Shown piece by piece: positions 5,640 through 29,221 of a stretch of 32,044 bases of DNA. Numbering within the stretch: position 1 is the first letter of the stretch; the number at the start of each line of letters is the position of its first letter. The stretch lies in assembly GCA_902785905.1 (NCBI GenBank), contig CADAAM010000085.1, positions 1 to 32,044 on the forward strand, written 5' to 3'. Source of the DNA: Oscillospiraceae bacterium. Its GTDB lineage: Bacteria; Bacillota; Clostridia; Oscillospirales; Oscillospiraceae. The position numbers were made by a program, and so were the translations under genes. The notes under the pieces are model-generated. The model was not told the DNA's origin. It searched no databases and saw nothing but the letters and a program-made list of their open reading frames with translations.

Positions 5640-7508
5640 ATGGACGATTCCCTTCTCAATCCCGCCCAGCTTGAGGCCGTCACAACGACCGAGGGCTTCG
5701 TGCGCGTCATCGCCGGGGCAGGCTCCGGCAAGACCCGCGCCCTGACGCGGCGCTTCGCCTTTCTGGTAAACGAGCTCGGCATCCTGCCGGGGAACATTCT
5801 CTGCGTCACCTTCACCAACAAGGCGGCCAATGAGATGCGTCGGCGCATCCATTCCCTCACCGGCGACAACGATACAGGCTACATCAACACCTTCCACGGC
5901 TTCTGCGTGTCGCTCCTGCAGGAGGACAGCTTTGCCGTCTCGTTCCCGAAGAGCTTTCTGGTGCTGGACAATTCCGATATCGACGACATGCTCCGCATCA
6001 TCTACGACGAGCGGGGACTTACCCTGCGGGACATGACCTTTTCCCAGGCCCGCGACATGATCGAGATTCAAAAGCTCTTCAAAAAGCCCGAATACTATCT
6101 CGACCTCATCGGCCTCTCCCTCGAGGCCCTGCGTGAGAAATACGAAAAGGCCGAGGGCGTGAAGGACACGATCTTCTACGGCTACCTCTACCAGGCGAAA
6201 AAATGCTTCGGTCTCGACTATAACGACCTCATCAAGTTCACGCTCTACATCTTCCGTGAAAATGCCGACATCCGACTCAAGTGGCAAAAACGCCTCGAGT
6301 ACATCATGATCGACGAATTTCAGGACATCGACATGCTCCAGTATGAGCTGATGGAGGCCCTGTGCGGCTATCATAAAAATCTCTTTATCGTCGGCGATCC
6401 GGACCAGACCATCTACACCTGGCGCGGTGCGGACGTGAAGTATCTGCTGGACTTTGACCGGGTTCACCCCGGGACGAAGACGATCATGATGATGCAGAAC
6501 TACCGCTCCACCCCGCAGATCATCAGCGCCGCCAACAGCCTCATCGACAAAAACCGCGCCCGCATCAAAAAGGACCTGATCCCCGTCCTCCCTGACGGCG
6601 AGAGCGTCCTGTGCCACCACGCCAAAAACACAGAGGCAGAAGCCGAGTGGATCGCGCACCGGGCCCATGAGCTCCACGATCGGGGCGTCTCTTACCGCGA
6701 GATGGCGGTGCTTTACCGCGCTCACCACGTCACCCGCAGTCTCGAGGAGGTCTTCCGCAAGCGTGAGCTGCCCTACGCCATCTACAGCGGGGTACAGTTT
6801 TTCGGCCGCGCTGAGATCAAGGACGCGCTGAGCTATCTGCGCATGGCCGCCTACAAGGACGATCTCTCCTTCCGCCGCGTGGCTAATGTCCCGAAGCGCA
6901 ACCTCGGCGAGCGGCGCATGCGCTTTCTCGAGGACTACGCCGCCCGCGAGAGCTGCACCCTGTACGACGCCCTGCGCCGGAACCTCGAGGGGGAGCTCTT
7001 CAAAGGCACGAAGGCCGCGATATTTGTCCGCCTCATTGAGGACTTCTCCGCCTCCTGCACCGAGCGGCCCGTGTCGGAGCTGCTGGCCGACATTCTGGAC
7101 AAGAGCGGCTATGAGGCCATGCTGCGCACCGAGGGCAGCATGGAGCGGCTGGACAATCTCGCAGAGCTCAAGCAGTCCGTCTATGAGTATGAGACGAGCT
7201 GCGGCGAGGAGGCCACCCTCGTCCACTACCTTGCCCACGTCGCCCTCTTCACAAACGCCGACGCCGAAACGGAGGGCGAGCGCATCAAGCTCATGACCGT
7301 ACATGCGGCCAAGGGCCTGGAGTTTCCCTGTGTCTTCCTCTGTGGGATGAACGAGGGCACCTTCCCTACCCGCCGCACCGGCACCCTCCCCGCCATGGAG
7401 GAGGAGCGGCGGCTGGCCTTCGTCGCCATGACCGCTATCCCTCGCGCTTTCTGCTGGATATCGACCCCGGCCTGCTCAGCTATGACGGGACGCCGCGCGA
7501 GGATCTGA
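5640..7508 (+). CDS. UvrD/PcrA-like ATP-dependent DNA helicase, frame lost near residue 598
   Basis: A superfamily 1 3'-5' DNA helicase for repair and replication-fork maintenance. Motifs in order: AGAGSGKTRALTRR (Walker A), CVTFTNKAANEMRRR (Ia), MIDEFQDID (Walker B), GDPDQTIYTWRGAD (III), QNYRSTPQI (IV), LMTVHAAKGLEFP (V) and RRLAFVAMT (start of VI). The ATG at 5640 follows GAGGTGAT. Motif VI normally continues TRA with an essential arginine, but here the frame breaks straight after VAMT. The last ~25 residues of this ORF are out of frame. Coding resumes in another frame with RYPSRFLLDIDPGLL and runs to 7729. About 20-25 family residues appear to be missing. If the sequence is right, the helicase lacks its arginine finger and is probably inactive. 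Confidence 0.85.
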   Translation: MDDSLLNPAQLEAVTTTEGFVRVIAGAGSGKTRALTRRFAFLVNELGILPGNILCVTFTNKAANEMRRRIHSLTGDNDTGYINTFHGFCVSLLQEDSFAVSFPKSFLVLDNSDIDDMLRIIYDERGLTLRDMTFSQARDMIEIQKLFKKPEYYLDLIGLSLEALREKYEKAEGVKDTIFYGYLYQAKKCFGLDYNDLIKFTLYIFRENADIRLKWQKRLEYIMIDEFQDIDMLQYELMEALCGYHKNLFIVGDPDQTIYTWRGADVKYLLDFDRVHPGTKTIMMMQNYRSTPQIISAANSLIDKNRARIKKDLIPVLPDGESVLCHHAKNTEAEAEWIAHRAHELHDRGVSYREMAVLYRAHHVTRSLEEVFRKRELPYAIYSGVQFFGRAEIKDALSYLRMAAYKDDLSFRRVANVPKRNLGERRMRFLEDYAARESCTLYDALRRNLEGELFKGTKAAIFVRLIEDFSASCTERPVSELLADILDKSGYEAMLRTEGSMERLDNLAELKQSVYEYETSCGEEATLVHYLAHVALFTNADAETEGERIKLMTVHAAKGLEFPCVFLCGMNEGTFPTRRTGTLPAMEEERRLAFVAMTAIPRAFCWISTPACSAMTGRRARI

Positions 7509-7729
7509 TCAGCGACGCCCGCGGCTATATCTCGGCGAGTGAGAACCGTCTCTCGGCCGGTGAGTTTCAGCCCTTCCCCGTCGGCCAGCGGGTCATGCAC
7601 GCGATACTCGGTCCCGGCACGGTGGTGGAGATCGACGCCGACAAGGGCGCACACCTCGTCAAATTCGACGCGATGCCCACGCCCCGTGCCATCTCCTTCC
7701 GCGCGAAGCTGGAGAAGAGCGAAGAATAA
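7433..7729 (+). pseudogene. C-terminal part of the UvrD/PcrA-like helicase, displaced frame
   Basis: This 98-residue continuation of the helicase begins at RYPSRFLLDIDP. It ends with a small Tudor/SH3-like module (FPVGQRVMHAILGPGTVVEI), as in the C-terminus of PcrA, followed by LEKSEE and TAA at 7727-7729. It has no start of its own. It is separated from the main ORF by the junction at ~7432, where the number of missing bases is not a multiple of three. Confidence 0.8.
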
Positions 7730-7734
7730 ATTGT

Positions 7735-7777
7735 AAAAAGGACAGGAGACTGCATAGAGCAGTCCCCTGTCCTTTTT
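7735..7777. terminator. Bidirectional terminator between the helicase and the DUF362 gene
   Basis: Arms AAAAAGGACAGGAGACTGC and GCAGTCCCCTGTCCTTTTT pair over 19 positions with one mismatch and a 5-base loop. A-run and T-run on the two sides serve both converging genes. Confidence 0.9.
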
Positions 7778-7778
7778 A

Positions 7779-8897
7779 TCAAATTTTGATCAGCTCGTAG
7801 TCCCTTGAGCCGAGGCCGATCTCCTCGGCGTGGATGAGGCCGGGTTCCCACTCGGCGTCCGGGTGGTTGAGGTGGAAGTACTCGTGATTCGGGTCCTCGT
7901 CCCAGAAGGACTTGATATGCCTGTCCAGGCGGCTGCCCTCGATGACGGGCATCTTGTTGCACAGATCGACACAGGCCTGATCCAGAGCCACGGGGTCGAA
8001 GGAGGCGAGCATGCCGATGTCCGGGATGATGGGCACGTCGTTCTCGGCATGGCAGTCGCAGAAGGGCGACACGTCGCAGATCAGGGAGATGTGGAAGTTC
8101 GGGCGGTCCTTCACCACGGCGTAGGCGTATTCGGAGATTTTGCAGGAGAGAATGCCCGCGGAGTGCTCCACGCTCGGCTCGATGGCGTCCTTCGGACATA
8201 CCGCGAGACAGCGGCCGCAGCCGACGCACTTGTTATGGTCGATGCTGGCCTTGCCGTTTGTGACGCGCGGGCCGTCGTGGGCGCAGATGCGCACGCAGGA
8301 GCCGCAGCCGATGCAGAGCTCGGGCTCGACCACGGGCTTGCCCTCCCAGTGCTGCTCCATCTTGCCGGAGCGGGAGCCGCTGCCCATGCCGAGATTCTTG
8401 AGCGCGCCGCCGAAGCCCGCCTCCTCATGGCCCTTGAAGTGGCTCAGGGAGATGATGATGTCGGCGTCCATGATGGCCTGTCCGATCTTGGCCTCCTTGA
8501 CCAGCGGCAGATTGATGGGCACCAGGGCCTCGTTTGTACCCTTGAGGCCGTCCGCGATGATGACGTGACAGCCGGTCTGCAGGGGGGAAAAGCCGTTTAA
8601 GTAAGCGGTGTCCATATGGTCAAGGGCGTTCTTGCGGCTTCCGACATAGAGGGTGTTGCAGTCGGTCAGAAAAGCCTTGCCGCCGAGCTCCTTGACATAG
8701 TCCGCAACGACCTTGGCATACTGCGGCCGCAGATACGCTAGGTTGCCGAGCTCGCCGAAGTGGATCTTGATGGCGGCGTAGCGGTCGGTAAAGTCGATGC
8801 TTTCAAAGCCCGCCTTTTTCAGCAGACGATGCAGCTTCTGGGGCAGTGTCTCGTTGGTGACGTGAAAATCGGTGAAGTATACGGAGGATTTTGCCAT
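7779..8897 (-). CDS. DUF362 domain protein with two 4Fe-4S clusters
   Basis: A 372-residue cytoplasmic iron-sulfur protein of the DUF362 family. Function is not established; an electron-transfer or scaffold role is suggested by the clusters. The DUF362 part flanks a bacterial ferredoxin module with two full cluster motifs, CIGCGSCVRICAHDGP and CVGCGRCLAVCPKDA, at about residues 188-235. A further Cys group (CDVSPFCDCH) follows. The ATG at 8897 (MAKSSVYFTD) has AAAAGGAG at a suitable distance; the longer frame to 9119 crosses the promoter and is rejected. The gene is monocistronic, with its own promoter and the strong shared terminator. Confidence 0.87.
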   Translation of the reverse strand: MAKSSVYFTDFHVTNETLPQKLHRLLKKAGFESIDFTDRYAAIKIHFGELGNLAYLRPQYAKVVADYVKELGGKAFLTDCNTLYVGSRKNALDHMDTAYLNGFSPLQTGCHVIIADGLKGTNEALVPINLPLVKEAKIGQAIMDADIIISLSHFKGHEEAGFGGALKNLGMGSGSRSGKMEQHWEGKPVVEPELCIGCGSCVRICAHDGPRVTNGKASIDHNKCVGCGRCLAVCPKDAIEPSVEHSAGILSCKISEYAYAVVKDRPNFHISLICDVSPFCDCHAENDVPIIPDIGMLASFDPVALDQACVDLCNKMPVIEGSRLDRHIKSFWDEDPNHEYFHLNHPDAEWEPGLIHAEEIGLGSRDYELIKI

Positions 8898-8973
8898 GTT
8901 TTCAGCTCCTTTTAGATAATGGTCACAGCCCGTCGCCGGGCACTCTCTCTTGCTTCTCTCGTACTTTGTTTTT

Positions 8974-9002
8974 ATTATGCCAAAGAACCCCGCGTATTGC
9001 AA
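8974..9002 (-). promoter_or_regulatory. Promoter for the DUF362 gene
   Basis: On the minus strand TTGCAA (9002-8997) and CATAAT (8979-8974) have a 17-base spacer, giving a ~70-base leader. Confidence 0.55.
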
Positions 9003-9224
9003 GAGCCGCTTATAGATAAAAAATAAAAATACGGAAGATTGCCCATAGTGCGGCGGCGCCGGTGCCGCGGGCCCTCCGCCCTGCCGGGACATCTCCTCGG
9101 ACTCCGCCGTGCCTCCCATGCAGAGCAGTCTCTATGTGAGGTTTTCCGCTCGGTTGGTTTATGAAAATGAAGAACGGCATACCCGCAGCGGCGTTTTTAA
9201 AATATGAAAAAGTCATTTTTTGCA

Positions 9225-9253
9225 TTGTGAGGATCACAAAGCTGTGTTAAGAT
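9225..9253 (+). promoter_or_regulatory. Promoter for the zinc-ribbon membrane protein
   Basis: TTGTGA (9225-9230) and TAAGAT (9248-9253) are 17 bases apart, 33 bases before the ATG at 9286. The rest of 8898-9285 holds the opposing DUF362 promoter and a GC-rich stretch (about 9048-9120) with no credible gene. Confidence 0.5.
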
Positions 9254-9285
9254 AGGGATACTTCAAGAACTGAGGGGTGACTCCC

Positions 9286-9918
9286 ATGACCGATGCCAAA
9301 TCCGGGAATCTCAACGATTCAGAAAAGACTGTGCGCTGCTCTTCCTGCGGAACAATGTATTCTGCATCAAAGCGAAAATGCCCCGCCTGCGGCCAGAGTA
9401 TTTCATCGAAGCGTTCTCCCCAGCCCGACAGCTTTTTCGCCAGGCTGAGTGAGATGAGAAAGCCTCAGAAAGTCAATCTACCCGCTCTGATCGGCGCCTG
9501 CCTGATCGTGACCGCCTACACGGCCGGCATCGTATTCAATATTTCGGCGAACGCCCGGGATGTCGAGCCCGTCCCGACCGCTGAAATTGTCGAGACGGCG
9601 GCACCGACGCCTGTCCCCACGCCCACGCCCACACCGACAGTCACCGGCATCAAGCTGTATGCATTCGGACGCGAGCTGGGCACCGACGGTTTTACCGCAT
9701 ACGTCGGGGACAAGCCCTTCTCCATCACCGCCGAGCTGGAGCCTCAGCTTCCGTCTGCGCATGTATCATGGTCCATAAGCGACAGTGCTTCCCTGTCCGT
9801 CAGCGGCGACAGTCTCAGCTGTGAATTCGCGGCGCTGAAACCCACCGGCAAAAACGAGCTTACCGTCAACTGCTATGGCTTTGAGACAACGATTCCCGTG
9901 TACCTGTGGGAGCGGTAA
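9286..9918 (+). CDS. Zinc-ribbon, single-pass membrane protein with an Ig-like extracellular domain
   Basis: A 210-residue protein of unknown function. A cytoplasmic zinc ribbon (CSSCGTMY...KCPACGQ, residues ~18-37) is followed by a single helix (LPALIGACLIVTAYTAGIVF, ~65-86). Next comes a Pro/Thr-rich linker (about 105-122, PTPVPTPTPTP) and a C-terminal beta-rich domain (VTGIKLYAFGRE to PVYLWER) with the look of bacterial Ig-like group 2 repeats. The topology suggests an outside-facing domain tethered to a zinc-binding cytoplasmic end. ATG 9286 is chosen because GAGGGG lies at the right distance; the in-frame GTG at 9277 overlaps that site. The gene stands alone. Confidence 0.7.
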   Translation: MTDAKSGNLNDSEKTVRCSSCGTMYSASKRKCPACGQSISSKRSPQPDSFFARLSEMRKPQKVNLPALIGACLIVTAYTAGIVFNISANARDVEPVPTAEIVETAAPTPVPTPTPTPTVTGIKLYAFGRELGTDGFTAYVGDKPFSITAELEPQLPSAHVSWSISDSASLSVSGDSLSCEFAALKPTGKNELTVNCYGFETTIPVYLWER

Positions 9919-10169
9919 GCCGTGCTGTGAAAGCGTCTTCCCTGCTCTTTCCATCAATCGGTTCCCTCTTCGGGCTCGGCGGCCCTGTCGAAGAGTCAGG
10001 CACTGATCAGACAAGCGCAGCCCTCTCGCCCGGACAGGCATTCTTGAAAAGAGCAGGAGCATCTTTCATAGATTTGACGGACGCGGTTTTCTCCGCGTCC
10101 GTCAGACTGCAGACAAACCCTCGCAAACCAGGTTGGTCTTGTAAGGGTGATCTGTGATGGGGGCGGGGA
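9919..10169. other. Non-coding stretch between convergent genes
   Basis: No credible gene was found. It holds a perfect 11-base-pair hairpin GACGGACGCGG/CCGCGTCCGTC (10076-10103, loop TTTTCT) without a T-run, and a G-rich/C-rich pair just before the 10170 repeat. Confidence 0.5.
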
Positions 10170-10229
10170 GTCCCCCTTCACGTACAATCCATGCAAAAAC
10201 GGGAACTTTTTCGGAAGTTCCCATTTTTG
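10170..10229. repeat. 60-base interspersed repeat, copy 2, with terminator hairpin
   Basis: Second copy of the element at 2177-2236. It carries the perfect stem GGGAACTT/AAGTTCCC (10201-10222), flanked by an A-rich run and ATTTTTG, and can act as a bidirectional terminator. It lies between the convergent zinc-ribbon protein and the Suv3-like helicase genes. Confidence 0.78.
10201..10229. terminator. Bidirectional terminator within repeat copy 2
   Basis: Perfect 8-base-pair stem with a TTTCGG loop. ATTTTTG follows on the + strand and GTTTTTGC on the minus strand, as expected for a shared terminator between converging genes. Confidence 0.7.
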
Positions 10230-10233
10230 TCCG

Positions 10234-10530
10234 TCATATTGATCCGTTTCTGATCCAGCCGGACTCTCTCAGGGCAAAGCAGCGGTCACAGCAGTTGTAC
10301 ACCGTGCCGATCGGCAGCTCCTTTCCGCAGGACGCGCAGCGGCGGATGTACTGGTCCTTGCCCTCTCTCATCAGCTCCGCAATCTTGTCGCAGATAGCCC
10401 GTCTTGCCTCGGTGCAGTCGTCCTCGATCCCGACGCGCCGCAGCAGCTGATGACGGATGTCGTAGGCCTTGTACTGAAGCTCGCATTCCTGGAGCGTCTC
10501 GTCGCCGAAATACGGCTCCGGGACGTGCAA
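10234..10530 (-). pseudogene. C-terminal part of the Suv3-like helicase, displaced frame
   Basis: This 98-residue continuation starts at LHVPEPYFGDETLQECELQ. It holds a helical segment and then a four-cysteine zinc finger (CASCGKELP...CCDRCF) and ends RNGSI, TGA. It has no start codon of its own in a sensible place and reads directly on from the main helicase ORF once the frame is switched at ~10531. The zinc finger may bind RNA (inference). Confidence 0.75.
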
Positions 10531-10531
10531 T

Positions 10532-11983
10532 TTTGCCCGCGCACCTGGCCCAGTAGATGACGAGCTCCGGAGAGCGGGTGTCCACCGGACAGGTGATGAG
10601 ATCATAGACGAGCTCCCTGTTTTCCGCCGTGACTCTGCTTTTCATGTGCTGCAAGAGGATGCGCGCGTCATGCATGCTCTCCCGGACAAACTCCGTCTCT
10701 TTGGGCATTTTGTCCCAGGCCAGGAGCAGCAGGTCCAGGGGGTAGTCCTCGGACAGGATCTCCCGCGGAAAGCCTATACAGGCCTGTCGGATAGCCTTCA
10801 CGCTCTGGCCTAGCTTTGCGCCGATCAGCTCACTGCTGCCGAGGGCCAGCACCTCCCCGTACTCGTTGAGGCCGTAGCGCCCGGCCCGGCCGCCGATCTG
10901 GTTGATTTCCGCCGTCGACAGGTTCCTGAACTCTTTCCCGTCAAATTTCTGTGTCTCCGCAAAGATGACGCGCTTGATCGGCAGCGAGATGCCCATTCCG
11001 ATTGCGTCCGTCGCCACGACGATATTGTTTTCACCCGAGAGGTATTTGCGCACCTCGTTCCGCCTGGCCTCCGGCGGCAGGGCCCCATAGATGACGCTCG
11101 CGTGAAAGCCGTGCTTTTCCAGGATGGCCGCCGTGGACAGCACGCTCTTTCTGGAAAAGCAGATGATGGCGTCATCCGGCCGGAAGTCCCGGTAGCTTCC
11201 GCACTGGCCTGCGTAGCGCAGCGGCGCGAGGCGCTTGTGCCAGACCACGTTGTAGGGATCGCCGAAGCTCTTGATCAGCTTCTCGATAAACGGCAGAGCC
11301 TCGGGCGCCATGCAGATGTGCACCAGCTCCGCGTCGACCAGGCAGATCGCCTTGAGCCAGGCTGAGCCGCGGTCCCTGTCCGCGATGAGCTGGGCCTCGT
11401 CGATGACCGCGGTCTTAAAGCGCGTGTTCAAATCGCAAAGCTCAATCGTGGAGGAGACGATCTGTGCCCCCTCCGTCGGGATGGACTCCTCCCCCGTCAG
11501 CATGCTGCACGGGATGCCCGCGCCGTTGAGCTTGTCGAACATCTCCAGCGCCAGAAGGCGCAGCGGGCCGAGGTAGGTGCCCGGCGTGTTCTTTTTCAGA
11601 TCCTCGACGGCGTCGTAGGTCTTGCCGCTGTTGGTCGGGCCGACGTGCAGCACAAAGCCCCGGCGCAGCCTGCGCGCCCTGTCGATATACGCCTCTGGAG
11701 AGAAGGACTCATACATCGCGGTGATCTCACTAAGCTGCCGCTCCCGGAGCTCTTTTTCATCCCGCTCCCGGAGGGCCTTCTGTATCTCCGGATGCCGGAT
11801 CGCCTCTTCGGACACAGCCTCCGGCCAGCCCTCCAGCGTCCACCAGGAGCCGCCGCGCCCTCGGGTCCGCACGATCTCGGGTTTTGGGAAATACGCGAGT
11901 ATGAGCTTTTTGGAGATCTTGTATTTTTCCATGATCTGCCGCCGGGTGAGCAGACGGACCTTTTCTTTTTTGCTTTTGCCCAT
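10532..11983 (-). CDS. Suv3-like DExH RNA helicase, frame lost near residue 484
   Basis: A superfamily 2 helicase of the Suv3 type, probably acting in RNA unwinding and decay. Motifs in order: HVGPTNSGKTYDAV (Walker A), GPLRLLALEM (Ia), LTGEE, AVIDEAQLI (DEAQ box), CFSRKSVL, VVATDAIGMGISLP (V) and QIGGRAGRYG (VI). ATG 11983 (MGKSKKEKVRLL) is chosen because the promoter at 12026-12054 excludes the longer frame to 12112; its ribosome binding site is weak. After ELVIYWARCAGK the frame changes. The ORF as read continues out of frame to 10286, while family-like sequence resumes in the next frame at 10530. A short stretch appears to be missing. The helicase core is intact, so partial function is possible. 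Confidence 0.82.
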
Positions 11984-12025
11984 GAAACCGATTCGCTTTC
12001 TGTTTTGTTTTTGTATCATACCCGT

Positions 12026-12054
12026 ATCATAACACGCCGCCCCGTGCAAAGCAA
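12026..12054 (-). promoter_or_regulatory. Promoter for the Suv3-like helicase
   Basis: On the minus strand TTGCTT (12054-12049) and TATGAT (12031-12026) have a 17-base spacer. A second TATGAT follows 11 bases downstream. The position supports translation from 11983. Confidence 0.55.
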
Positions 12055-12154
12055 GGACTTGCCCGCCCGCCGGATGAAGCGGAATTTGGCGTCTGATCGG
12101 CAATTTGTCCAAGCGCTCCGTCGGCGGCAGGCGTCAGATTTTACATGCCCGCAA

Positions 12155-12183
12155 TTGACAAAGTGATGCGAACTTGATACTAT
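12155..12183 (+). promoter_or_regulatory. Promoter for the metY-metA operon
   Basis: A consensus TTGACA (12155-12160) and TACTAT (12178-12183) have a 17-base spacer. The ~60-base leader is too short for an SAM riboswitch or T-box and shows neither. Confidence 0.7.
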
Positions 12184-12250
12184 TTGCAAAGATATTCACG
12201 CGGGCCTGTTCTTTCAGCCCTTTGGTCAAGATACTATCCGAAAGGAATGA

Positions 12251-13525: not shown

Positions 13526-13555
13526 TAACTGACTGCCTGAAGGAGAACACGCGCC

Positions 13556-14482
13556 ATGCCGATCAAAATACCGAACGAGCTGCCCGCGACCAATGTGCTC
13601 GAGAGCGAGAACATCTTCGTCATGACGGAGCGCCGGGCCATGACCCAGGACATCCGCCCGCTGCAGGTACTGCTGCTGAACCTGATGCCGACCAAGATCG
13701 CCACGGAGACCCAGCTCACACGCCTTTTGAGCAATACGCCCCTGCAGGTGGAGCTGGAGCTCATGCAGACCAGCACTTATGTGGGCAAGAATACGCCGCA
13801 GGAGCACATGCTCAAGTTCTATACGGATTTTGCGCACGTCAGGGACCGCTATTTTGACGGCATGGTCATCACCGGCGCGCCGGTGGAGAAGCTGGACTTT
13901 GATCAGGTGGAGTACTGGGATGAGCTGTGCCAGATCATGGAGTGGAGCAAGACCCACGTCCACAGCACCTTCCACATCTGCTGGGCTGCCCAGGCCGCGC
14001 TCTACTACCACTACGGCATCCAGAAGATCCCACTGCCGGAGAAGCTCTCGGGCGTGTACCCGCACTGGGTGGTGCGCCGCTCGTCCATGCTGATGCGCGG
14101 CTTTGACGACCGCTTTATGGTCCCCCACTCCCGCAACACCACAGTCGCGCTGGAGGACGTGATGGCCTGCGACAAGCTCAAGATCCTCGCCGTTTCCGAG
14201 AAGGCCGGGCTCTACGCCGCGGCCACGGAGGGCGGACGTCAGATCTTCATCACCGGCCACTCCGAATATGACGCCGACACCCTGAAAGGCGAGTATATCC
14301 GCGATCTGAGACTGGGTCTCAACCCACATATGCCAGAGAACTACTTCCCCAACGACGATCCGAGCCGCGAGCCGATCATGAGCTGGCGCTCCCATGCCAA
14401 TCTCCTGTACATGAACTGGCTCAACTACTTTGTTTACCAGTCCACGCCCTATGACATCCAGACCATTGAACCGATCAAGTGA
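13556..14482 (+). CDS. metA: Homoserine O-acetyltransferase, MetA type
   Basis: Acylates homoserine at the first committed step of methionine synthesis. It is full length (308 residues), beginning MPIKIPNELPA. Catalytic residues of the glutamine-amidotransferase-like fold are in place: Cys142 in HICWAAQ, and His235 and Glu237 in TGHSEYD. Residue 111 (GAPVEKL) is Glu. In characterised MetA proteins Glu111 favours acetyl-CoA and Gly111 succinyl-CoA, so the product is predicted to be O-acetylhomoserine despite the common 'succinyltransferase' label. This fits the metY gene just upstream. AAGGAG precedes the ATG, and a strong terminator follows. Confidence 0.93.
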   Translation: MPIKIPNELPATNVLESENIFVMTERRAMTQDIRPLQVLLLNLMPTKIATETQLTRLLSNTPLQVELELMQTSTYVGKNTPQEHMLKFYTDFAHVRDRYFDGMVITGAPVEKLDFDQVEYWDELCQIMEWSKTHVHSTFHICWAAQAALYYHYGIQKIPLPEKLSGVYPHWVVRRSSMLMRGFDDRFMVPHSRNTTVALEDVMACDKLKILAVSEKAGLYAAATEGGRQIFITGHSEYDADTLKGEYIRDLRLGLNPHMPENYFPNDDPSREPIMSWRSHANLLYMNWLNYFVYQSTPYDIQTIEPIK

Positions 14483-15214: not shown

Positions 15215-15982
15215 ATGAAAAAAATACTGGCGCTGCTGCTAACGCTCCTGCTGCTGACTGCCTGCTTCCCGCTCGGCGCATTCGCCGTCAATGAGGACGT
15301 GGAGGGCACGGTCGGCATCTATTCGTCGATGTACCAGTTCGTCATTGACATGATGGATGAGGCGATCAAAAAGGAATTTCCCAACCTGACCCCGGCCTAT
15401 GACGGCAGCTTCTTTTTTTACGGCGGCACGTCCTCTCTGATCACGAAGGTCTACGGAGAGATGGAGACCGGCACGCTCGGCTGCGACATGATGCTGGTGG
15501 CGGAGCCCGCCTTTTCTCTTGAGCTCAAGGAGGCCGGTTATCTCGAGCCGGTGGAGATTGAGGACGCGGACAGCCTGCTGCGCTTCCCCTATGACGAGGA
15601 GGGCTGCTGGTATCCCGTGCGCGTGTGCAACATGGTCCTGGCCTACAATCCCGACATGGTGGACGACTGGGCCGCCAGGGGCGTGAAGATTCCCCATACC
15701 TTCAGGGACTTTGCCGAAGATCCGTCCCTCAAGGGCTACATCTCCATGGGCAACCCCATGACCTCCGGCACGACCTTTGCCGCTGTGGCCTCCCTGACCC
15801 AGGACGACCACTACGGTGAGGACTTTCTCAAGGGTCTCGCCGCAAACGGCGTCATGATCGAGTCCGGCTCCACCGCCATCACCAAGCTCCAGACCGGCGA
15901 GTGCGCGGCCATCATGATCCTGGAGGAGTCCATCCCATCACGAACGTCGCCTGCATCTACCCCGAAGACGGCGTGGTGCTGA
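15215..15982 (+). CDS. ABC transporter substrate-binding protein (ferric-iron type), frame lost near residue 240
   Basis: An extracytoplasmic solute-binding protein of the iron (FbpA/AfuA-like) family, first gene of an ABC importer operon. The signal peptide MKKILALLLTLLLLTACFPL carries a possible lipobox (LTAC, Cys17), with an alternative signal peptidase I site at AFA-VNE. The mature part shows EGTVGIYSSMYQFVIDMM, FFYGGTSSLITKVYGEM and CNMVLAYNPDMV. A gene-type ribosome site (AAGGAGG) precedes ATG 15215. After MILEESI the frame breaks at ~15935 and this ORF ends out of frame at 15982. The rest of the protein continues in another frame to 16260. Ligand specificity is inferred from the family only; 2-aminoethylphosphonate or other anions are alternatives. 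Confidence 0.8.
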   Translation: MKKILALLLTLLLLTACFPLGAFAVNEDVEGTVGIYSSMYQFVIDMMDEAIKKEFPNLTPAYDGSFFFYGGTSSLITKVYGEMETGTLGCDMMLVAEPAFSLELKEAGYLEPVEIEDADSLLRFPYDEEGCWYPVRVCNMVLAYNPDMVDDWAARGVKIPHTFRDFAEDPSLKGYISMGNPMTSGTTFAAVASLTQDDHYGEDFLKGLAANGVMIESGSTAITKLQTGECAAIMILEESIPSRTSPASTPKTAWC

Positions 15983-16260
15983 TCCCCTCCACGGTGATGA
16001 CCGTCGCGGAGGAGCACTCCGCCAACGTCAATACCGAGGCCTGCGAGGCGGTCGAGCAGTGGCTTCTGAGCGAGGAGGCCCAGAAGCTCATCCTCGAGGG
16101 CTACATGCACTCCGTTTTTGCCGGGATGGAGGAATACCCCCACAATTCCGTCCCCACCGAGGAGCTCATCGAGAAGGACTTCGGCGTGGACTGGGACAAC
16201 GCCTACCACAACCGCGAAGCGATCAACACCGCCTGGACGGAGATCGTCACTGCTAAGTAA
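15934..16260 (+). pseudogene. C-terminal part of the ABC substrate-binding protein, displaced frame
   Basis: This 108-residue continuation (PITNVACIYPEDGVVLIPST to AWTEIVTAK, TAA at 16258) contains the typical C-terminal lobe of a family 1 binding protein (EAVEQWLLSEEAQKLI). The junction lies in a direct repeat CCATC-CCATC at 15930-15939. About 8-12 residues appear to be missing relative to related proteins (estimate from memory). Confidence 0.8.
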
Positions 16261-20280: not shown

Positions 20281-20552
20281 ATCGGTACCGCGCGGGCATG
20301 CCTCCCCTGTAAGGGGAGGTGGCATCCAGCGTCTCCCGCGACGGCACATTATCAAGGGCGAAGCCCATCCTTAAATGTGCCAACTCCCTTTAGGGGCAGG
20401 CCGGATGTCAGAGGGGTTACCCCTCAGTCACGACGCTTGCGGGGGACTCGCCGCGACAGCAGAGCTTTGTACGTCTCGCGTTTCTCGCGCGTCGCTATGC
20501 TCTCCTTTCAGGGGAGCCGCGGGGCGCTGTGGATTCGCCAGGGTGCTTTCTG
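20281..20552. repeat. GC-rich palindromic intergenic repeat region
   Basis: There is no gene here. Hairpins are CCTCCCCT/AGGGGAGG (20301-20319), GGCACATT/AATGTGCC (about 20344-20381, with an inner GGGC-GAA-GCCC stem), GAGGGG/CCCCTC (20411-20425) and CTCCTTTCAGGGGAG (about 20502-20516). The phrase style (CTCCCTTTAGGGG, CCCTCAGTCACG, CTCCTTTCAGGGGAGCC) matches interspersed intergenic repeats that I recall from Clostridia genomes. Short ORFs within are spurious. It directly abuts the 3' end of the YbaK-like gene. Confidence 0.6.
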
Positions 20553-20678
20553 TCATTCCGCTTCCCAGGGCAGGTCGACGAAGGTCGGCGCGTGGCCCAT
20601 GGCGGGGATGATCTTTTCCAGCAGATCCGAGGTGCTGACGCGCAGGGACGAGCTGTTGAGACAGGGGTGCATGCCGAT
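20553..20678 (-). pseudogene. C-terminal part of the YbaK/ProX-like deacylase, displaced frame
   Basis: A 41-residue continuation (IGMHPCLNSSSLRVSTSDLL to FVDLPWEAE, TGA). It includes the HPCLNSSSLR segment that is conserved near the end of this family. It is reached only by switching frame at ~20679, where the family normally has a few more residues between RD and the Gly-x-HP motif. Confidence 0.8.
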
Positions 20679-20680
20679 GG

Positions 20681-21091
20681 ATCGCGGTCGATGAGCAGAC
20701 GCACCCTGTTCTCTCTGTCGTTTATCAGGCCCAGCACGCTGACCGAGCCGGGAGTGATGTCCAGCACGTCCAGCATCTGTTCGGGCGTTGCAAAGGACAG
20801 GCGGGCCGAGCCGATCTGCTTTGACAGCAGCTTTGTCTTGAAGGGCTTGTCCCCCGGCATGAGCAGCAGCCACAGCTCGGTCATCTGGCGATTTGTGAGA
20901 AAGAGGTTCTTGCAGATCTCACAACCCAGGAGCTTTTCGATCTCATGGCAGGCCTCAATGGTGTCAGCATGGTCGTGGTCGACGCGGGTATAGGCGACGC
21001 CGAGACTGTCCAGCAGCGCATAGCAGCGCTCCTCCTTGTCGGCGCGTCTGTCCGCGGGTCTGCCGGTGTAGACGGTGTGGTCAATGTACAT
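20681..21091 (-). CDS. YbaK/ProX-like aminoacyl-tRNA deacylase, frame lost near residue 137
   Basis: A cytosolic editing enzyme family that hydrolyses mischarged tRNA (for example Ala- or Cys-tRNA(Pro)). The sequence shows YALLDSLGVAYTRVDHDHADTIEACHEIE, CKNLFLTNR, the KTKLLSKQIGSARLSFATPE segment with the family lysines, LGLINDRENRVRLLIDRD. After IDRD the frame changes; the ORF as read runs out of frame to 20495. ATG 21091 lies one base after the TGA of the upstream gene, indicating translational coupling. It is the last gene of the leftward operon. The likely full product is about 185 residues. Confidence 0.82.
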
Positions 21092-21092
21092 G

Positions 21093-22145: not shown

Positions 22146-22149
22146 AGGC

Positions 22150-23118
22150 TTATCCGATCACATCCGCGAAAACGCGCAGTGCGTTTTGACAGCAGATTTT
22201 TTCCGCCGCGTCCGAGCCGAAGCGGTCAGCGATCCGCTCCGCGAGGGCGGGCAGCCCGGTATAATCGCCCAGCTCAAGGGTGCAGTCGATCCCGTCAAAG
22301 TCGGAGCCGAGGGCCACGGCCTCCATCCCCGCCTTGTCCGCGATATGGCCCATGTGGCGCAGGATGTCGTCGTTTGCGGTATGCTCCGCGTTTTCCCGCA
22401 GAAAGCGGGCGTAGAAGTTCACGCCGCACACGCCGCCCGCGTCGCCCAGGGCGCGGAGCTGCCCGTCCGTGAGGTTGCGGGGGTGATCGCAGAGGGCGCG
22501 GGCGCAGGAGTGAGAGGCGATAAAGGGCTTTTTGCTCTCCCGCGCGACATCCCAAAAGCCGCCCTCGGAGAGGTGGGACACGTCCACAACCATGCCGAGC
22601 TGCCCCATACGGTCGATGACCTCAAGGCCGAAGTCCTTGAGCCCCTTTCCGTGCAGGTCCGGGTCGGGGGAATTGGGATAGCCGAGGCTGTTTTCATAGT
22701 TCCAGGTGAGGGCGATCATGCGCACGCCGAGCTCATACATGGTCTGCAGGCGCTCGATCTTCCCGTCGAGGCCGACGCCGTCCTCCACGGTGAGCATGGC
22801 GGAGATGTGGCCGCGCTTTCGGTTTTGTTCGATGTCCGCCATGGTGCGCGCGGGGCGCAGCGCGTCGGGAAAGCGGGCGGCCTCCCGCTCAAACAGCGCC
22901 GTCTGGGCGAGGAAGAAGTCCCACGGGTCCTGTGTAATGTGATATTTCTCGGCGCAGTCGTGGGTCGGGATGAAGGCCGCGAAGCACTGCAAAAGCGCCC
23001 CGCCCGAGCGGAGCTTATGAAGGCTTACATGTCCCGGCGCGGCCTCCAGCCCGCAGCCCTCCTGCTGCAGGGTCAGCAGGGTATCGCAGTGCAGGTCGAC
23101 AAATATTCTGTTGCTCAT
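22150..23118 (-). CDS. Membrane dipeptidase (renal dipeptidase family, peptidase M19)
   Basis: A zinc-dependent dipeptidase of 322 residues. The HxD metal motif is at residues 10-12 (VDLHCDTL), followed by the bridging Glu in TVEDGVG, the His in DVSHLSE and ASHSCARAL, and the LGSDFDGID segment that holds the conserved substrate-pocket Asp. There is no signal peptide, so a cytoplasmic location is likely. ATG 23118 overlaps the preceding stop (ATGA) and has GGAG upstream. It is apparently intact. Confidence 0.9.
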   Translation of the reverse strand: MSNRIFVDLHCDTLLTLQQEGCGLEAAPGHVSLHKLRSGGALLQCFAAFIPTHDCAEKYHITQDPWDFFLAQTALFEREAARFPDALRPARTMADIEQNRKRGHISAMLTVEDGVGLDGKIERLQTMYELGVRMIALTWNYENSLGYPNSPDPDLHGKGLKDFGLEVIDRMGQLGMVVDVSHLSEGGFWDVARESKKPFIASHSCARALCDHPRNLTDGQLRALGDAGGVCGVNFYARFLRENAEHTANDDILRHMGHIADKAGMEAVALGSDFDGIDCTLELGDYTGLPALAERIADRFGSDAAEKICCQNALRVFADVIG

Positions 23119-23750
23119 GCTGACTTCTCCCCCTCCGGCGTTTTATTTCCGATCACGTCCGGCATGGTCTCGCCCTTCTCGATCATCGGCAGATACCAGC
23201 TCCCGTAATAAAAGGGCTGCTCGTCCGCGCTGCCGGGCCATTTACTGCCCCAGGGGCGCAGATAGATCACATAGTGAAAGCCGCCCCTGCCGACGGCCTG
23301 GTACTCCCCTTCGATGGTCAAAAGCATTCCGCAGGCGTCCTCCCTCTCGGTGATCGTCCAGTCGGAGGGACTGAGCTCCCGGTCGAGAAAGCTGCCGCCC
23401 GCGCAGCGCAGCGCGCCGCCGTCCCGCTCAAGAAGCGCTTCGCTGAGGCAGTTGTCGCGGGGCATGTCCTCGTCCCAGAGCAGGAGCTTCCGCGCGCCGT
23501 CCGCCTCGGAGAGCACGGCGCAGCAGTCCCAGTAATAGCCGTACATATGCGCCCAGTCGCCCTTGCAGTGGTCCATCTTCCACCAGCCGTACCAGTCCCC
23601 GTCAGAGACAGCGGCGGCTTCGGCGGTGGGCGCGGGCGTCGGGGCCATATCCAGGATCACGACGGTCTTGTCCGCCGCGCTTTCTTTCCCGCAGCCGCAG
23701 AGCAGCAGAGAGAGCAGCGCGGCGAGCAGGGATATGCCTATATTTCTCAC
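23115..23750 (-). CDS. Hypothetical lipoprotein
   Basis: A 211-residue secreted lipoprotein with no family that I recognise. The signal peptide MRNIGISLLAALLSLLLCGC ends in a lipobox (LCGC, Cys20). A short linker rich in Pro, Ala and Thr (about 35-46) leads into a Trp-, Tyr- and Cys-rich domain (WYGWWKMDHCKGDWAHMYGYYWDCC). The start is GTG at 23750, overlapping the TGA of the upstream gene (GTGA). It is part of the long leftward operon. A role at the cell surface alongside the membrane glycosyltransferase-like genes is a guess. Confidence 0.75.
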   Translation of the reverse strand: MRNIGISLLAALLSLLLCGCGKESAADKTVVILDMAPTPAPTAEAAAVSDGDWYGWWKMDHCKGDWAHMYGYYWDCCAVLSEADGARKLLLWDEDMPRDNCLSEALLERDGGALRCAGGSFLDRELSPSDWTITEREDACGMLLTIEGEYQAVGRGGFHYVIYLRPWGSKWPGSADEQPFYYGSWYLPMIEKGETMPDVIGNKTPEGEKSA

Positions 23751-24120
23751 CCGAATTTCACCACGATCCTGTTGTCGATTTTCTGCACCGAGCCGTCGTA
23801 GGGGTACTCCGCCATGGCGAGCACGCGCGGGTCCTCCGCAAGCTCTGCAAGCTCCGCCTCGTCCGCAAAGGGGATGTCGAGGCCGAGGTAATATCGTATG
23901 AGGTTTTCCCGGGAATAGATGTTGACAAGATCCCGGTTCACGCCCATGAAGAGCTCGGTGTCGAGCTCCGGGAAAGTATGCAGCAGATTGTCCTGCCGTC
24001 CGATGACGGCGAGGGTGCAGCCTTCGTCAAAGCCCTCGGTCCTCTCCACCCGGGAGGCGAGCACGGTATAGAAGGCCCGGGCGTTTTCATATTGCAGGGT
24101 CATTTTGAGATAGCACTTGT
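23747..24120 (-). pseudogene. C-terminal part of the GtrII-like glucosyltransferase-domain protein, displaced frame
   Basis: A 123-residue soluble C-terminal domain (KCYLKMTLQYENARAFYTVL to GSVQKIDNRIVVKFG). The YLKMTLQYENAxAFYTxLxxRVExTEGF segment belongs directly after the last membrane helix in GtrII-like proteins. It has no sensible start codon and follows the main ORF across a frame switch inside the palindrome CTTGTACAAG (24116-24125). Confidence 0.78.
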
Positions 24121-25193
24121 ACAAGGCACAGCGGCAGACAGAGCCAGTCTGCGCCGCCCTTCACCCGCTCCGCCGCGATCCCCATCAGCAGATAGACACA
24201 CACGAAGCTGTACATGACCAGCGTGTGAATCGACTCCTGCGACATGATGAGGAACATGCAGCAGATGCTCAGCGGCAGAAGCAGCAACAGCACCGCGAGC
24301 AGCGCAGCGTTTAACACCCGGCGCCCCCTGAGCGCAAGTCCCGCCAGCGCCGCAAGGGTAAGGCCCAGCAGGGCGATGTGCAGATAGCGCGAGGCCTCAG
24401 ACGTGATGAGCGAGAAGTTTCGGAAGCTGAAGATGTAAGTAAAGGCGTCATAGGCCATGCGGACGCGCCGCGGCAGACTCACCGCGCCGTTGACGTTCTC
24501 GGTCACATAGCTGTTGAATGCCGTGCCCGTCACGCGCAGGACGAGCAGGGTGATGAGATAGTACAGCGCCACCGCCCCCAGCAGCATCGCCAGGGCCTTG
24601 ACGCCGAAGCGCACGATCTCAAAAACAGGCTTCTCCCCGTCCAGGGTATCACGGATCATCACCAGCAGCAGCAGGCTTGCGGCGAGTGAGATATACGCCT
24701 GATAGATGCCCAGGGCGAGCACCAGCAGCACCGCGCCCAAAAGCGTCCGCCGCAGTCCGCCCTTACAAAACAGGAACACCGCCAGCACCGCGAGGCCGAA
24801 GGACCAGGCATAGGCGCTGGAGGTGAACATGAAGCAGAAGACCCCCGTAAGGGCCGGAAAGCTCGTGATGATTGCGGGGAGCACGGCGCGCATGACCGTG
24901 CTGCGGATGTTGAGTACGGAGAGAATCAGGCAGCAGGCCAATGAGATCAGCAGCAGGCTCACAATTCCGTAGACCCAGGGCATGGACCAGTCGGGAAACA
25001 GGACCTTCACGAGCTCAAGTCCCCAGCGTCCGGAGGTCACGGTCGCGCCCTTGCCGAAGAGGGACTCGATCTCGTCATGGTTTAAGAGCTTGTTGGCAAA
25101 GGCATAGCCGTGGGCGAGCAGGCCCGCGATCAGCGCCGAGCAGAACGGCGTCCGCCAGTCCCGCCGCAGGGCGTTCAGCTTCTCCGTATTCAT
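24121..25193 (-). CDS. GtrII-like membrane glucosyltransferase-domain protein, frame lost near residue 357
   Basis: A polytopic membrane protein of the GtrII-like family, which adds glucose to surface polysaccharides in characterised relatives. It begins MNTEKLNALRRDWRTPFCSA and has a catalytic-type acidic loop (FANKLLNHDEIESLFGKGATV), then about nine hydrophobic helices. After the last helix (LPLCLV) the frame is lost, and the ORF as read runs out of frame to 24087. The soluble C-terminal domain continues in the next frame (23747-24120). A few residues (about 10-15, estimate) appear missing. ATG 25193 overlaps the stop of the preceding gene (ATGA). Confidence 0.75.
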
Positions 25194-26740
25194 GGGCGGC
25201 TCTCGACCTTTCTGAAAACAGTGAACAGCCCGTAGGCCGCGATGGGCAGCATCAGGGAAAAATACGGCAGGGCGTACTGACTCTTGGCCTCAAACAGCAG
25301 ATGGTAGAGAAGCCCGCCCAGGACGATCAGCGGCAGCAGGCAGCGCAGCAGATCCTTCTTCTTCCACAGGCGGATCAGACCGAAGAGCAGGCTGAGGAAG
25401 ACGAACTGCTGAAACTGGTTCATAGTGCCGAAGGTGCGTCTCGTCCCGCTGCCGCAGAAGAAGTCGTACAAAAAGCCCTTCTTGCCGTAGCTCGGGTACA
25501 CCTGGTTGAGCCAGAGGGAGCCGTAGCTCGGCTCGTTCCACTGGCTGCGCAGCTTCTGGGAGAAGAAGGTAAACATAGAGGACGGCTCGCGCAGGAACTC
25601 ATGCAGGCGCGCGGCGACGCTCTGCCTCGCCTGGGCTGCGGTCTCGGCGCTGTCGCGGCCGTTTCTCTCGAAGGACTCCACCGTGTAGGCCGCGTTATAC
25701 CAGCCCGGCGCGGCGTAGCCCTCGTTGAAGCCCATGGCCATCCAGGCGATCATGGGGATGCCGTCGCCATAGTCCACGCCTATCCCCTTTTCGTAGATCT
25801 TCTGCGGCAGCTTCGGGATCGTAAAGACACAGACCGCGGCAAACAGCAGACACAGCAGAGATTTGAGCGAGGGCTTTTTCAGCAGCATGATGATCCAGGC
25901 CCCGCCCACCGCCGCGCAGAAGATCAGCAGATTGAGCTTGAGCGTGACCGCGAGGGCCAGCAGCAGGGCGCAGAGCACGCCGTATCTCGTCTTGCCCTTT
26001 TTGATAAACAGCAGCATCATCCACACAGCGCAGATGCCGCAGGAATAGGCGGGGACGTTTCCGTAGAGAAACGGCAGGGTCAGCAGCGGAGGAAAGCAGA
26101 AGAAAAGCAGCAGGATCAGGAGCTTGCGGATGCGCTCATCCTTAAACAGCAGCCCTGTGATCTCAATGAGGGCGTGGTATTGCAGGATCAGCCAGAAGAG
26201 GTTCAGCTCCTGCAGGGCGAGCACGGCGTAGCCCTCCGGCGCGCTGCGCAGAAAAAGTGCCATGAGGCGGAAGAAAATCTCCGAATACAGCACATAGCCG
26301 AGCTGGAACGGGAAACGGTGAAAATAGTTCTCGGACAGAATGGAATAATCCCCCACTGCCGCGCGCTGCGCCCCATAGGTGACGAGGAAGGAGTCGCTGT
26401 AGCTCGGCGCGCGCAGCTTCGTCGTGGCGATATAGGCCGTCCCGAGGGCGAAGGTCCAGAACAGCAGGGCATATTCCATCCGCCGAAAACGTATCCCGCC
26501 GCAGTGGCGGAAAAACAGGTAGACCGACGACAGGAGGAGGGAGAGGATGATGATGTTCAGAAACACATTATCGTCGTAGAACTCGATATTCTCACCGGAG
26601 GCATCCTCCGTGTTCAAGATGCTGGTCTCCCAGAAGGCCGCGGCCGTAAGTCCAAGGATAAACGCAAGGGTGAGAATCAGGATGATCGCGGAGGCCGTCT
26701 TCTCCAGGTTTGTGGAAAAGCGCTCCAGTCTGTTGTCCAT
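25190..26740 (-). CDS. Multi-pass membrane glycosyltransferase-like protein
   Basis: A 516-residue membrane protein with about ten to twelve hydrophobic helices and an extracytoplasmic segment in the second half. The general layout is of dolichyl/undecaprenyl-phosphate mannosyl- or glucosyltransferases of the GT39/ArnT/PMT type. An early acidic segment lies after the first helix (SGENIEFYDDN). The end, FEAKSQYALPYFSLMLPIAAYGL, is typical of such proteins in Clostridia as I remember them. ATG 26740 has GAGGAGGAG upstream. It overlaps the GtrII-like gene by four bases. The acceptor is unknown; a wall or lipid-linked polymer is likely. Confidence 0.65.
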   Translation of the reverse strand: MDNRLERFSTNLEKTASAIILILTLAFILGLTAAAFWETSILNTEDASGENIEFYDDNVFLNIIILSLLLSSVYLFFRHCGGIRFRRMEYALLFWTFALGTAYIATTKLRAPSYSDSFLVTYGAQRAAVGDYSILSENYFHRFPFQLGYVLYSEIFFRLMALFLRSAPEGYAVLALQELNLFWLILQYHALIEITGLLFKDERIRKLLILLLFFCFPPLLTLPFLYGNVPAYSCGICAVWMMLLFIKKGKTRYGVLCALLLALAVTLKLNLLIFCAAVGGAWIIMLLKKPSLKSLLCLLFAAVCVFTIPKLPQKIYEKGIGVDYGDGIPMIAWMAMGFNEGYAAPGWYNAAYTVESFERNGRDSAETAAQARQSVAARLHEFLREPSSMFTFFSQKLRSQWNEPSYGSLWLNQVYPSYGKKGFLYDFFCGSGTRRTFGTMNQFQQFVFLSLLFGLIRLWKKKDLLRCLLPLIVLGGLLYHLLFEAKSQYALPYFSLMLPIAAYGLFTVFRKVESRP

Positions 26741-26783
26741 TGCGGTCTCTCCTCCTCTATCTTAAAATCAGAATCAGCTGTGG

Positions 26784-28148
26784 TTATTGCCTGCTGCGCC
26801 CTTTTCCAAAGCTCAGACGGTGCAGAAACAGGAGCAGGAGCGCGAGGTAGACGGCCGCGATCGCGCAGACCACAATGGCCATGAGGTCGGAGCGGGCAGC
26901 CAGACTCACCAGCACCAGGACCGGTGCGCCCAGGATGATGCCGACGCTGCTGCCGCTGACGAGATTGTTGGCGGCCGGAGTCTTAAAGTTGCTGTCGATC
27001 TCCCGCAGCAGGAGGATGCCGGAGGAGATGGTGCCGGTCATCATGCCGTACATGGAGATAAGACCTTCATAATAATAATCGGGATAGGCCCAGCGGCACA
27101 CGCGCTTGAGGTGGAGCCAGGTGAAAACGCCGCCGCTGAGGGCCATGAGCAGAAAGTAAACCCACAGGCCGCTCAGATCCTCGATATTGATGGAGGAGAC
27201 GCCGGCGACGATCATAAGGTCGAAGAAGAAGCCGGAGATTCGATTCAGGAGATAGTTGTTCTGATACTGCCGCTCGATGAGGCCGCTCTGTCTCCCCTTC
27301 TCCAGCAGGGCGCGCAGCAGCACCGCGATAGCCGAGCCGATGATGAAGTTAAAGCCCCAGAGCAGGGTGTTGACCGTTCTGGCAAGGCCCTCCGAAATCG
27401 CCGCAATGCCCGAGGTCAGCCCCCAAGTGGCAAGATAGGTGACAAGGTAGGTCACCAGCACCATCGCGAGCTGGACGGACAGCCTGTCCACCGAGTCGGC
27501 CACGGGCAGCTCGTTTCGATCCTGGAAGAAGTCGACGGCGAGATCGTCGTCGCTCGCCCTCTTCGAGGGCTTGAGACTGCCGCGCCTGGCCAGGACGTTG
27601 AGCAAAATGACGCCCACGACGCAGGCGCAGAGATAGCCCGCCGCCGCGATGGCGAGGCCGAAGCTGCGCCCGCCGGCAAAGCCCAGGTTCTGATAGCTGG
27701 TGCCCACGTTGTTGGCCTGTCCGGGGCCCTGGCCGAAGCCCATCGGCAGCAGCAGGCCGGAGGCCTTGAAAAGCCCCGGCATCAGGGTATAGCCGAGGGT
27801 GATGCTGATGAGAAGGCCGATCACGCCCTGCACCATGTAGGAGCTCACAATGATGACGCCGGACTTGAGGGCGGCGTGGTCAGTCTGGTTTGCCGCCTTG
27901 TTCGGCACGCGCAGGGACATGGCGATGAAGCCCAGGGCAATACCGTGGTAGACCAGGATCTCCATGATCTCCCCGTCGATATGGATGAGGCCCGTGTATT
28001 TGAGCGCGAGGACCGCCACGGGCATCATGGCATTGCGGATGAGTTTGACCCGGTTGCGCAGCATATTGCAGATCAGGATCGCCCCCGCGATCAGGCCGAG
28101 CTGTATGACAATATTCCAGAGGGATGTGTTTGCGGCAGAATAATCCAT
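26784..28148 (-). CDS. Sodium/glutamate symporter family protein (GltS-like)
   Basis: A 454-residue inner-membrane Na+-coupled carrier of the ESS/GltS type. It has 10-12 helices in two repeated halves, with glycine-rich re-entrant loops: MGFGQGPGQANNVGTSYQNLGF in the first half and YGMMTGTISSGILLLREID in the second. The glycine-rich loop differs from E. coli GltS (GQGPGQANNVG), so the substrate may be something other than glutamate. ATG 28148 has GGAGG five bases upstream. It lies 14 bases after the acyltransferase gene in the long leftward operon. Confidence 0.82.
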   Translation of the reverse strand: MDYSAANTSLWNIVIQLGLIAGAILICNMLRNRVKLIRNAMMPVAVLALKYTGLIHIDGEIMEILVYHGIALGFIAMSLRVPNKAANQTDHAALKSGVIIVSSYMVQGVIGLLISITLGYTLMPGLFKASGLLLPMGFGQGPGQANNVGTSYQNLGFAGGRSFGLAIAAAGYLCACVVGVILLNVLARRGSLKPSKRASDDDLAVDFFQDRNELPVADSVDRLSVQLAMVLVTYLVTYLATWGLTSGIAAISEGLARTVNTLLWGFNFIIGSAIAVLLRALLEKGRQSGLIERQYQNNYLLNRISGFFFDLMIVAGVSSINIEDLSGLWVYFLLMALSGGVFTWLHLKRVCRWAYPDYYYEGLISMYGMMTGTISSGILLLREIDSNFKTPAANNLVSGSSVGIILGAPVLVLVSLAARSDLMAIVVCAIAAVYLALLLLFLHRLSFGKGRSRQ

Positions 28149-28162
28149 GTTGTCCTCCGATT

Positions 28163-29221
28163 TCAGGCCGCGGCATTCTGCCAGACCATCAGGTATTTTC
28201 TCAGGCAGGCCCCGCCCGCCGCGCGAATTTCAAAATAGCGGTCCCCGACGGAAAAGAGCAGCATCCCGGCCTTGACCATGGCCATGCTGTCGATCTCCGT
28301 GAGCGGAAAGCACCGGCCGCCGAGCTCGATGGCGTCGGGGTACTGTCGGAGCTCTCCCTTTGCAAGCAGCGTCTCGCGGTGGCCGGCGCCGATCTCGCGC
28401 AGGGTCATGTCCCCGTCCGAGAAGAGCAGGCCGTCCGCCCGCGCGCAGATATCCTTCAGCGCGCTCCGCTGAACGGTCTCCCACTCGGCGAGGGTCTCCA
28501 CCGGGTCGGGCGGGTCGAAGAAGCCCTCCTCGGTATAGAGAAGGTCGAGGCCGCAGGCGCAGACCACGCGGTCTCCCACGCCCCGGACACTCCCGAGCTC
28601 TCCGCATTTAGGGCAGAGAAAGAAGCCGCGCTCGATCCCCTCGGCCCGGTTCCGTCCCCGAAAGCGCACATGCTCCGTCCGCTGGCGGGCAAAGGCGTCC
28701 TCGTACAGGTCGCGGTCGATGAGGGCCGTAATTGCCGGGCCCTTCATGGCCTTCAGCTCCTCCGGGCTGTAGATCCCGACGGCAGCGCCGCGCATCCGGC
28801 CGAGGCGGCGGGAGTTTGCCCAGCGCGGCAGGCTGAGATAGCCGCCCTCCAGGCGGTAGGTCACAAGCGGGACGCCCGCCATGGCGAAGAGGCAGACGGT
28901 GTCCCCCGCCTTCAATGCGCGCAGGACCGCCATGACCGTGTCCGCCCCGGAGGCCGCCTTTTTACGCGGGATGGGCGCGACCAGCCATTCAAGCAGTTTT
29001 GAGAGGAAACCGTGACGGAAGATATGCTCGCTCGCCACGAAGCGTACGGGGCGATCCGGAAAGCTCATCGCGAGCAGAAGGGGGTCCCAGTTTGTCACAT
29101 GGTTTGCGATAATGAGGCAGGGGCCGTCCGTTTGGCAGGGCTTCGCCGTCATGTTGAAGCGGCGCGCCACGAAACCGCGCATCAGCCGCTGCAGAAAGCG
29201 CCAGCGTTTGAGTCTTTTCAT
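28163..29221 (-). CDS. PlsC-like acyltransferase with zinc ribbon, probable internal deletion of motif III
   Basis: A lysophosphatidate acyltransferase family protein of 352 residues. The catalytic NHxxxxD motif is clear (ANHVTNWD, His41, Asp46). Related proteins continue from a CLFAEGNRS-type segment (the EGTRS motif that binds glycerol-phosphate) to VTYRLEGGYL. Here VCLFA is followed at once by MAGVPLVTYRLEGGYL, so about 20-25 residues including that motif appear to be missing, in frame, at ~28881. Residues ~205-235 hold a zinc ribbon (CPKCGELG...VCACGLD), and the C-terminus is a PH-like beta domain. ATG 29221 has GGAGAGGGG upstream. As read, the enzyme would probably be inactive. Confidence 0.78.
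   Translation of the reverse strand: MKRLKRWRFLQRLMRGFVARRFNMTAKPCQTDGPCLIIANHVTNWDPLLLAMSFPDRPVRFVASEHIFRHGFLSKLLEWLVAPIPRKKAASGADTVMAVLRALKAGDTVCLFAMAGVPLVTYRLEGGYLSLPRWANSRRLGRMRGAAVGIYSPEELKAMKGPAITALIDRDLYEDAFARQRTEHVRFRGRNRAEGIERGFFLCPKCGELGSVRGVGDRVVCACGLDLLYTEEGFFDPPDPVETLAEWETVQRSALKDICARADGLLFSDGDMTLREIGAGHRETLLAKGELRQYPDAIELGGRCFPLTEIDSMAMVKAGMLLFSVGDRYFEIRAAGGACLRKYLMVWQNAAA

Follow-up and report, generated by a model that had tools for sequence, protein, structure and literature searches.

Short Blunt Losses of Conserved Coding Sequence in a Metagenome-Assembled Oscillospiraceae Genome Are Very Probably an Error of Its Assembly or Data

Results

Six Scarred Genes on One Contig

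The stretch of DNA analyzed here, referred to as the window, has 32,044 bases and is the whole of contig C85 of the draft genome G000, a metagenome-assembled genome (MAG) that comprises 191 contigs, totals 2.73 Mb, and is 84.8% complete. For comparison, 40 relatives were searched, 24 of them sharing the genus of G000; no second genome of its species was found, and the named loci similar to the window came mostly from gut and rumen Clostridia MAGs. The original prediction placed in each of six genes one abrupt junction at which family-conserved sequence seemed to be missing. All six junctions were present, a few bases at most from the predicted sites, as read from the alignment joins and, for the third gene, from the frame model described below (Table 1). 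In the five genes that could be compared with same-genus relatives, conserved sequence was indeed missing in the lengths listed, and the relatives carried the segment within one open frame. The tblastx comparisons of each of these genes with same-genus loci gave two colinear blocks whose offset jumps at the junction, and the relatives kept a single frame across every compared junction.

Table 1. Genes of the window that carry a scar.
Gene	Coordinates	Strand	Scar	Missing sequence	Effect on frame
UvrD/Rep-type helicase	5640..7728	+	7433/7434	61 nt	changed
Suv3-like helicase	10234..12112	-	10529/10528	11 nt	changed
ABC-transporter substrate-binding protein	15215..16260	+	~15935	roughly 20 nt (estimate)	changed
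YbaK/EbsC-type deacylase-like	20552..21091	-	20680/20679	16 nt	changed
GtrII-like glucosyltransferase membrane protein	23747..25193	-	24121/24120	41 nt	changed
Acyltransferase (Pfam Acyltransferase)	28163..29221	-	28883/28882	66 nt	kept

The size of the loss in the uvrD-like gene was obtained from the tblastx offsets against L003 and L022 and from an alignment of L003, L022, L023, and L024; further downstream, the L022 block differs by one codon more. This loss lies directly after the motif FVAMT, in the C-terminal helicase domain, and the Pfam UvrD_C match in the first piece reaches profile position 337 of 350. For the Suv3-like gene, which matches DEXQc_Suv3, the same loss was found by tblastx against two genomes, one represented by L103 and L111 and the other by L104 and L110. 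The loss in the YbaK-like gene, whose TIGR00011 match is weak (21.6 bits), was the same against all seven relatives (L125-L131) in tblastx, five of which were also aligned, and that of the GtrII-like gene, which matches Glucos_trans_II, was the same against each of L139, L140, and L141 in tblastx. The in-frame loss of the acyltransferase gene was found against each of L153, L154, L156, L158, and L159, and in nine genomes by block coordinates; against four more distant genomes (G001, G005, G006, and G014), it amounted to 63 nt, one codon fewer. Its Pfam match ends at the scar, at profile position 97 of 132, and the second piece is without a match. A close relative of the substrate-binding protein was absent from 26 genomes, where the best match had 29% identity, and a search of 147 genomes of the order at E 1e-10 gave none outside G000 and one weak paralogue within it. 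The two halves of this protein fit Pfam SBP_bac_6 up to position 154 and from position 168, respectively, and the loss was therefore estimated at about 20 nt, the second half scoring 22.4 bits against a cut-off of 24.6.

Reading frames were followed with a Markov gene model, implemented as an HMM with a penalized frame jump and trained on G000 (window included). Seven jumps were detected in the window: five at 7435, 10533, 15936, 20679, and 24120, and two more at 23123 and 25201, which are ordinary short gene overlaps. Intragenic jumps were thus found by this model solely at the five sites expected to change frame, in agreement with the prediction that the genes hold no other frameshifts; losses in frame, such as that of the acyltransferase gene, escape it.

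Frame Jumps in the Rest of the Genome

A strict criterion was applied to the jumps, which requires the first frame to run on beyond the jump by more than 40 nt without a stop; this discards most gene overlaps. The stretches of 38 other G000 contigs (616.7 kb) gave 51 jumps, of which 29 were dropped by the strict criterion and 22 kept, some of which may be false; the criterion also drops the window site at 24120, where the first frame is open for 34 nt. When 41-nt deletions were simulated in G000, 116 of 217 were recovered under the same criterion. The 22 strict jumps were distributed over the contigs in a Poisson-like manner (chi2 33.9, 37 df).

Six of the genes hit outside the window were compared with homologous sequences, dnaK, rpsJ, and rplD with the DNA of relatives and RsmA, EF-G, and MurA with profiles. 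For dnaK, rplD, rplC, and yebC, the gene names are putative assignments from the sequences. In comparison with eight of eight relatives in each case, 41 nt are missing from rpsJ, the gene of ribosomal protein S10, and 35 nt from rplD, the gene of L4. The two scars lie 1.7 kb apart on contig C16 (rplD at L218:1249 and rpsJ at L218:2950) and flank an rplC-like gene that is open and single. A search of G000 with Pfam S10 gave no site besides the broken rpsJ. In dnaK, 104 nt are missing relative to four of the five same-genus relatives having a listed second block; the figure for the fifth, L226, is 101 nt, its block lying further downstream. The sole other G000 match to dnaK is weak (27%). With the window genes, the size of the loss was read against relatives in eight genes. 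As for the profiles, the two pieces of RsmA cover positions 1-159 and 179-255, with 19 skipped, and those of EF-G reach position 390 and resume at 430, with 39 skipped.

A special status for the six genes of the window is not supported: the window has four strict jumps, whereas the other G000 contigs would lead one to expect 1.14 (P = 0.029). Its density is about 3.5 times theirs, a mild excess in a window that was picked for having scars. The predicted spacing was found, the distances between junctions being 3.1-5.4 kb, and random placement of six points would seldom give distances as even as these (CV 0.20, P = 0.0035), in a test that was made after the fact and in which every site falls in a separate gene.

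Frame Jumps in Control Genomes

The model trained on G000 was run on other genomes, and the same-genus MAGs showed few strict jumps at comparable detection power. None was found in 228 kb of G015, G022, and G003, where 39 of 79 simulated 41-nt deletions were recovered under the strict criterion (18 of 35, 16 of 32, and 5 of 12, respectively). A second set, 17 stretches drawn from 11 other genomes of the genus and all with GC above 0.53, gave one strict jump in 270.8 kb, with 42 of 94 simulated deletions recovered. The pool of these 14 MAGs therefore holds one strict jump in 498.8 kb, against 22 in the 616.7 kb of G000.

Stretches with low sensitivity or low GC were kept apart from this pool. 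G008 was set aside (80 kb, no jumps), 0 of 28 simulated deletions being found there under the strict criterion, and, of 20 later stretches, three with GC of 0.53 or less were left out, two from G001 (40 kb, no jumps, 0 of 14 simulated deletions found) and one from G024 (9.6 kb, two jumps, 1 of 3 found). The two jumps of G024 are at L285:849 and L285:973 on contig C75, 124 nt apart. With all the set-aside stretches included, the same-genus total is three jumps in 628.5 kb. Among sixteen GC-matched named loci, four strict jumps were found in 248 kb (L026:2162, L049:412, L087:5242, and L095:9733), and 44 of 90 simulated deletions were found.

Counts from models that had a training of their own for every genome or locus were rejected. 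They had given seven jumps in G015, seven in G003, three in G022, and none in G008, with a further 16 across the 1.07 Mb of 59 named loci, and they were dropped because the translations at jumps looked antisense in G015, G022, G003, and two named loci; the model was therefore retrained on G000 and rerun.

Joins and Missing Segments

The two sides of the joins read share next to no sequence: 1 nt in rpsJ, 0 in rplD, and 0 in dnaK, and about 0-2 nt at the compared joins of the window, which were read by eye against more diverged relatives. No direct repeat beyond these 0-2 nt was seen at the ends of the lost segments in the joins read. This argues against false overlaps at short repeats, either between contig ends or within read pairs. 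Merging of that kind would likewise remove tens of nt in a single assembly, but it needs about 10 nt or more to be shared at the join, and we regard it as very unlikely.

The missing segments, as found in the relatives of six genes, were compared for GC content and folding with windows of the same genes. In all nine rows of the uvrD-like and acyltransferase genes, and in two rows of the Suv3-like gene, the missing segment was GC-richer, and for the former two genes, eight of nine segments fell within the most stably folding 14%. These values would suit an artefact of library preparation or sequencing in which a polymerase skips hairpins or high-GC stretches. However, the segment was GC-poorer in three of three rows for gtr, four of four for dnaK, and four of five for ybaK, and 8 of the 12 segments of these three genes fold less stably than half of the windows or more. 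The six genes tested (uvrD-like, acyltransferase, Suv3-like, gtr, dnaK, and ybaK) show no consistent hairpin or GC cause, and polymerase skipping is a very unlikely source of the scars.

No runs of Ns were found in the G000 stretches read, one left-out contig excepted. When the missing segment of dnaK was sought in G000, no near-full copy appeared among the 40 short matches listed (E up to 10), the best of them being 39 nt at 79% (E = 0.006).

Discussion

We consider it very probable that the scars are an error of the G000 assembly or of its data, a judgment that also covers the library or sequencing, false-overlap, and data-handling explanations. S10 and L4 are essential. With rpsJ and rplD both broken and no other S10 found, the population would not be viable, and the consensus is therefore wrong at these two genes. 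The scars of the window have the same anatomy and are most likely further cases of the same kind. The original prediction had offered two options, a systematic artefact and a process that removes short stretches of DNA. The former is supported, the scars being spread over the sampled contigs of this one MAG at a roughly Poisson rate, found in ribosomal genes, and rare in same-genus MAG stretches; the latter is not supported.

The second option would mean that the deletions are real and arose in a strain undergoing decay or hypermutation, where blunt end-joining took 11-104 nt from many genes. The losses are real in the consensus, their sizes vary freely, and the 0-2 nt shared at the joins would suit end joining. 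Against this, rpsJ and rplD are broken even though every ribosome needs both products, no point frameshifts accompany the scars in the window, and the scars are rare in the same-genus MAG stretches, so that real deletions are highly improbable. Pseudogene decay has in common with these scars that conserved genes carry broken frames; it leaves several lesions per gene in dispensable genes, whereas here one clean loss was found in each window gene, with no further breaks, and ribosomal genes are hit elsewhere, which contradicts it. Translational bypassing and programmed frameshifting are different again. In those systems, the product requires a jump of the reading frame; here, the DNA itself lacks the conserved coding stretch, and there is nothing to bypass or recover. 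We also give almost no credence to the idea that the segments are truly absent and are supplied again, in RNA or DNA, by pieces encoded separately.

As to how an assembly error would produce such scars, erased assembly or scaffolding gaps, that is, short gaps closed without Ns, are a reasonably likely cause, rather than another informatic or library step. Two pieces really separated by roughly 10-100 nt would have been written end to end where the assembler failed. Such joins would carry neither Ns nor any true overlap, and every one of them would lose a short blunt piece, usually breaking the frame. The Ns would presumably have been erased within the making of the assembly or, in a sub-type of this explanation, stripped later in data handling from runs that the deposited record holds at the scars. 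In favor of such later stripping, there are the zero N runs in 1.72 Mb of genome stretches (from partly overlapping loci and with one contig left out), whereas five runs, 10-122 Ns long, were seen among the 80 named loci. None of the named loci matched a locus of the genomes compared at ≥95% over 600 bases. The same-genus genomes of the same source collection, however, show few scars, and this sub-type is possible but rather doubtful.

Erased gaps remain our preferred account, although the even spacing and the higher density in the window do not fit it neatly, as neither is predicted by a uniform artefact. Both features were seen after the window had been selected and were given little weight. 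The four strict jumps of the GC-matched named loci and the two of the G024 stretch also speak against an error peculiar to this assembly.

Local errors and scaffolding gaps in MAG assemblies that leave incorrect or incomplete protein-coding genes in public databases are described in passages of Chen et al. 2020 (PMC7111523), according to which the error regions lack perfect read support and Ns are inserted despite an overlap. The likeness to G000 is that faults of a draft metagenome assembly spoil protein-coding genes; the difference, as far as these passages go, is that the Ns are inserted there despite overlap, whereas the G000 joins lose short sequence without Ns. In the parts of the literature on assembly errors covered by our search, no case of exactly the form seen in G000 was named.

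By rough extrapolation over 2.73 Mb, the number of such joins in G000 may run to a few hundred, a figure based on the 22 detected in 617 kb, all taken as real, at about 53% sensitivity, plus the in-frame losses that go unseen. The joins, which break genes such as rpsJ, rplD, and dnaK, could be taken for lost genes, for pseudogenes, or for novel starts of genes. Frame jumps in ribosomal genes, together with same-genus controls carrying simulated deletions, would offer a cheap screen for MAGs.

Two sites on other contigs lie at gene boundaries. At L214 near 17010 (contig C11), there is a frame jump between two adjacent similar genes, which look polysaccharide-deacetylase-like by eye and may be an ordinary tandem pair. 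At L174:18339 (contig C60), murA is cut a few residues short of its end and leads at once into an MBL-fold hydrolase gene that lacks its start, and the joins therefore cross gene boundaries too.
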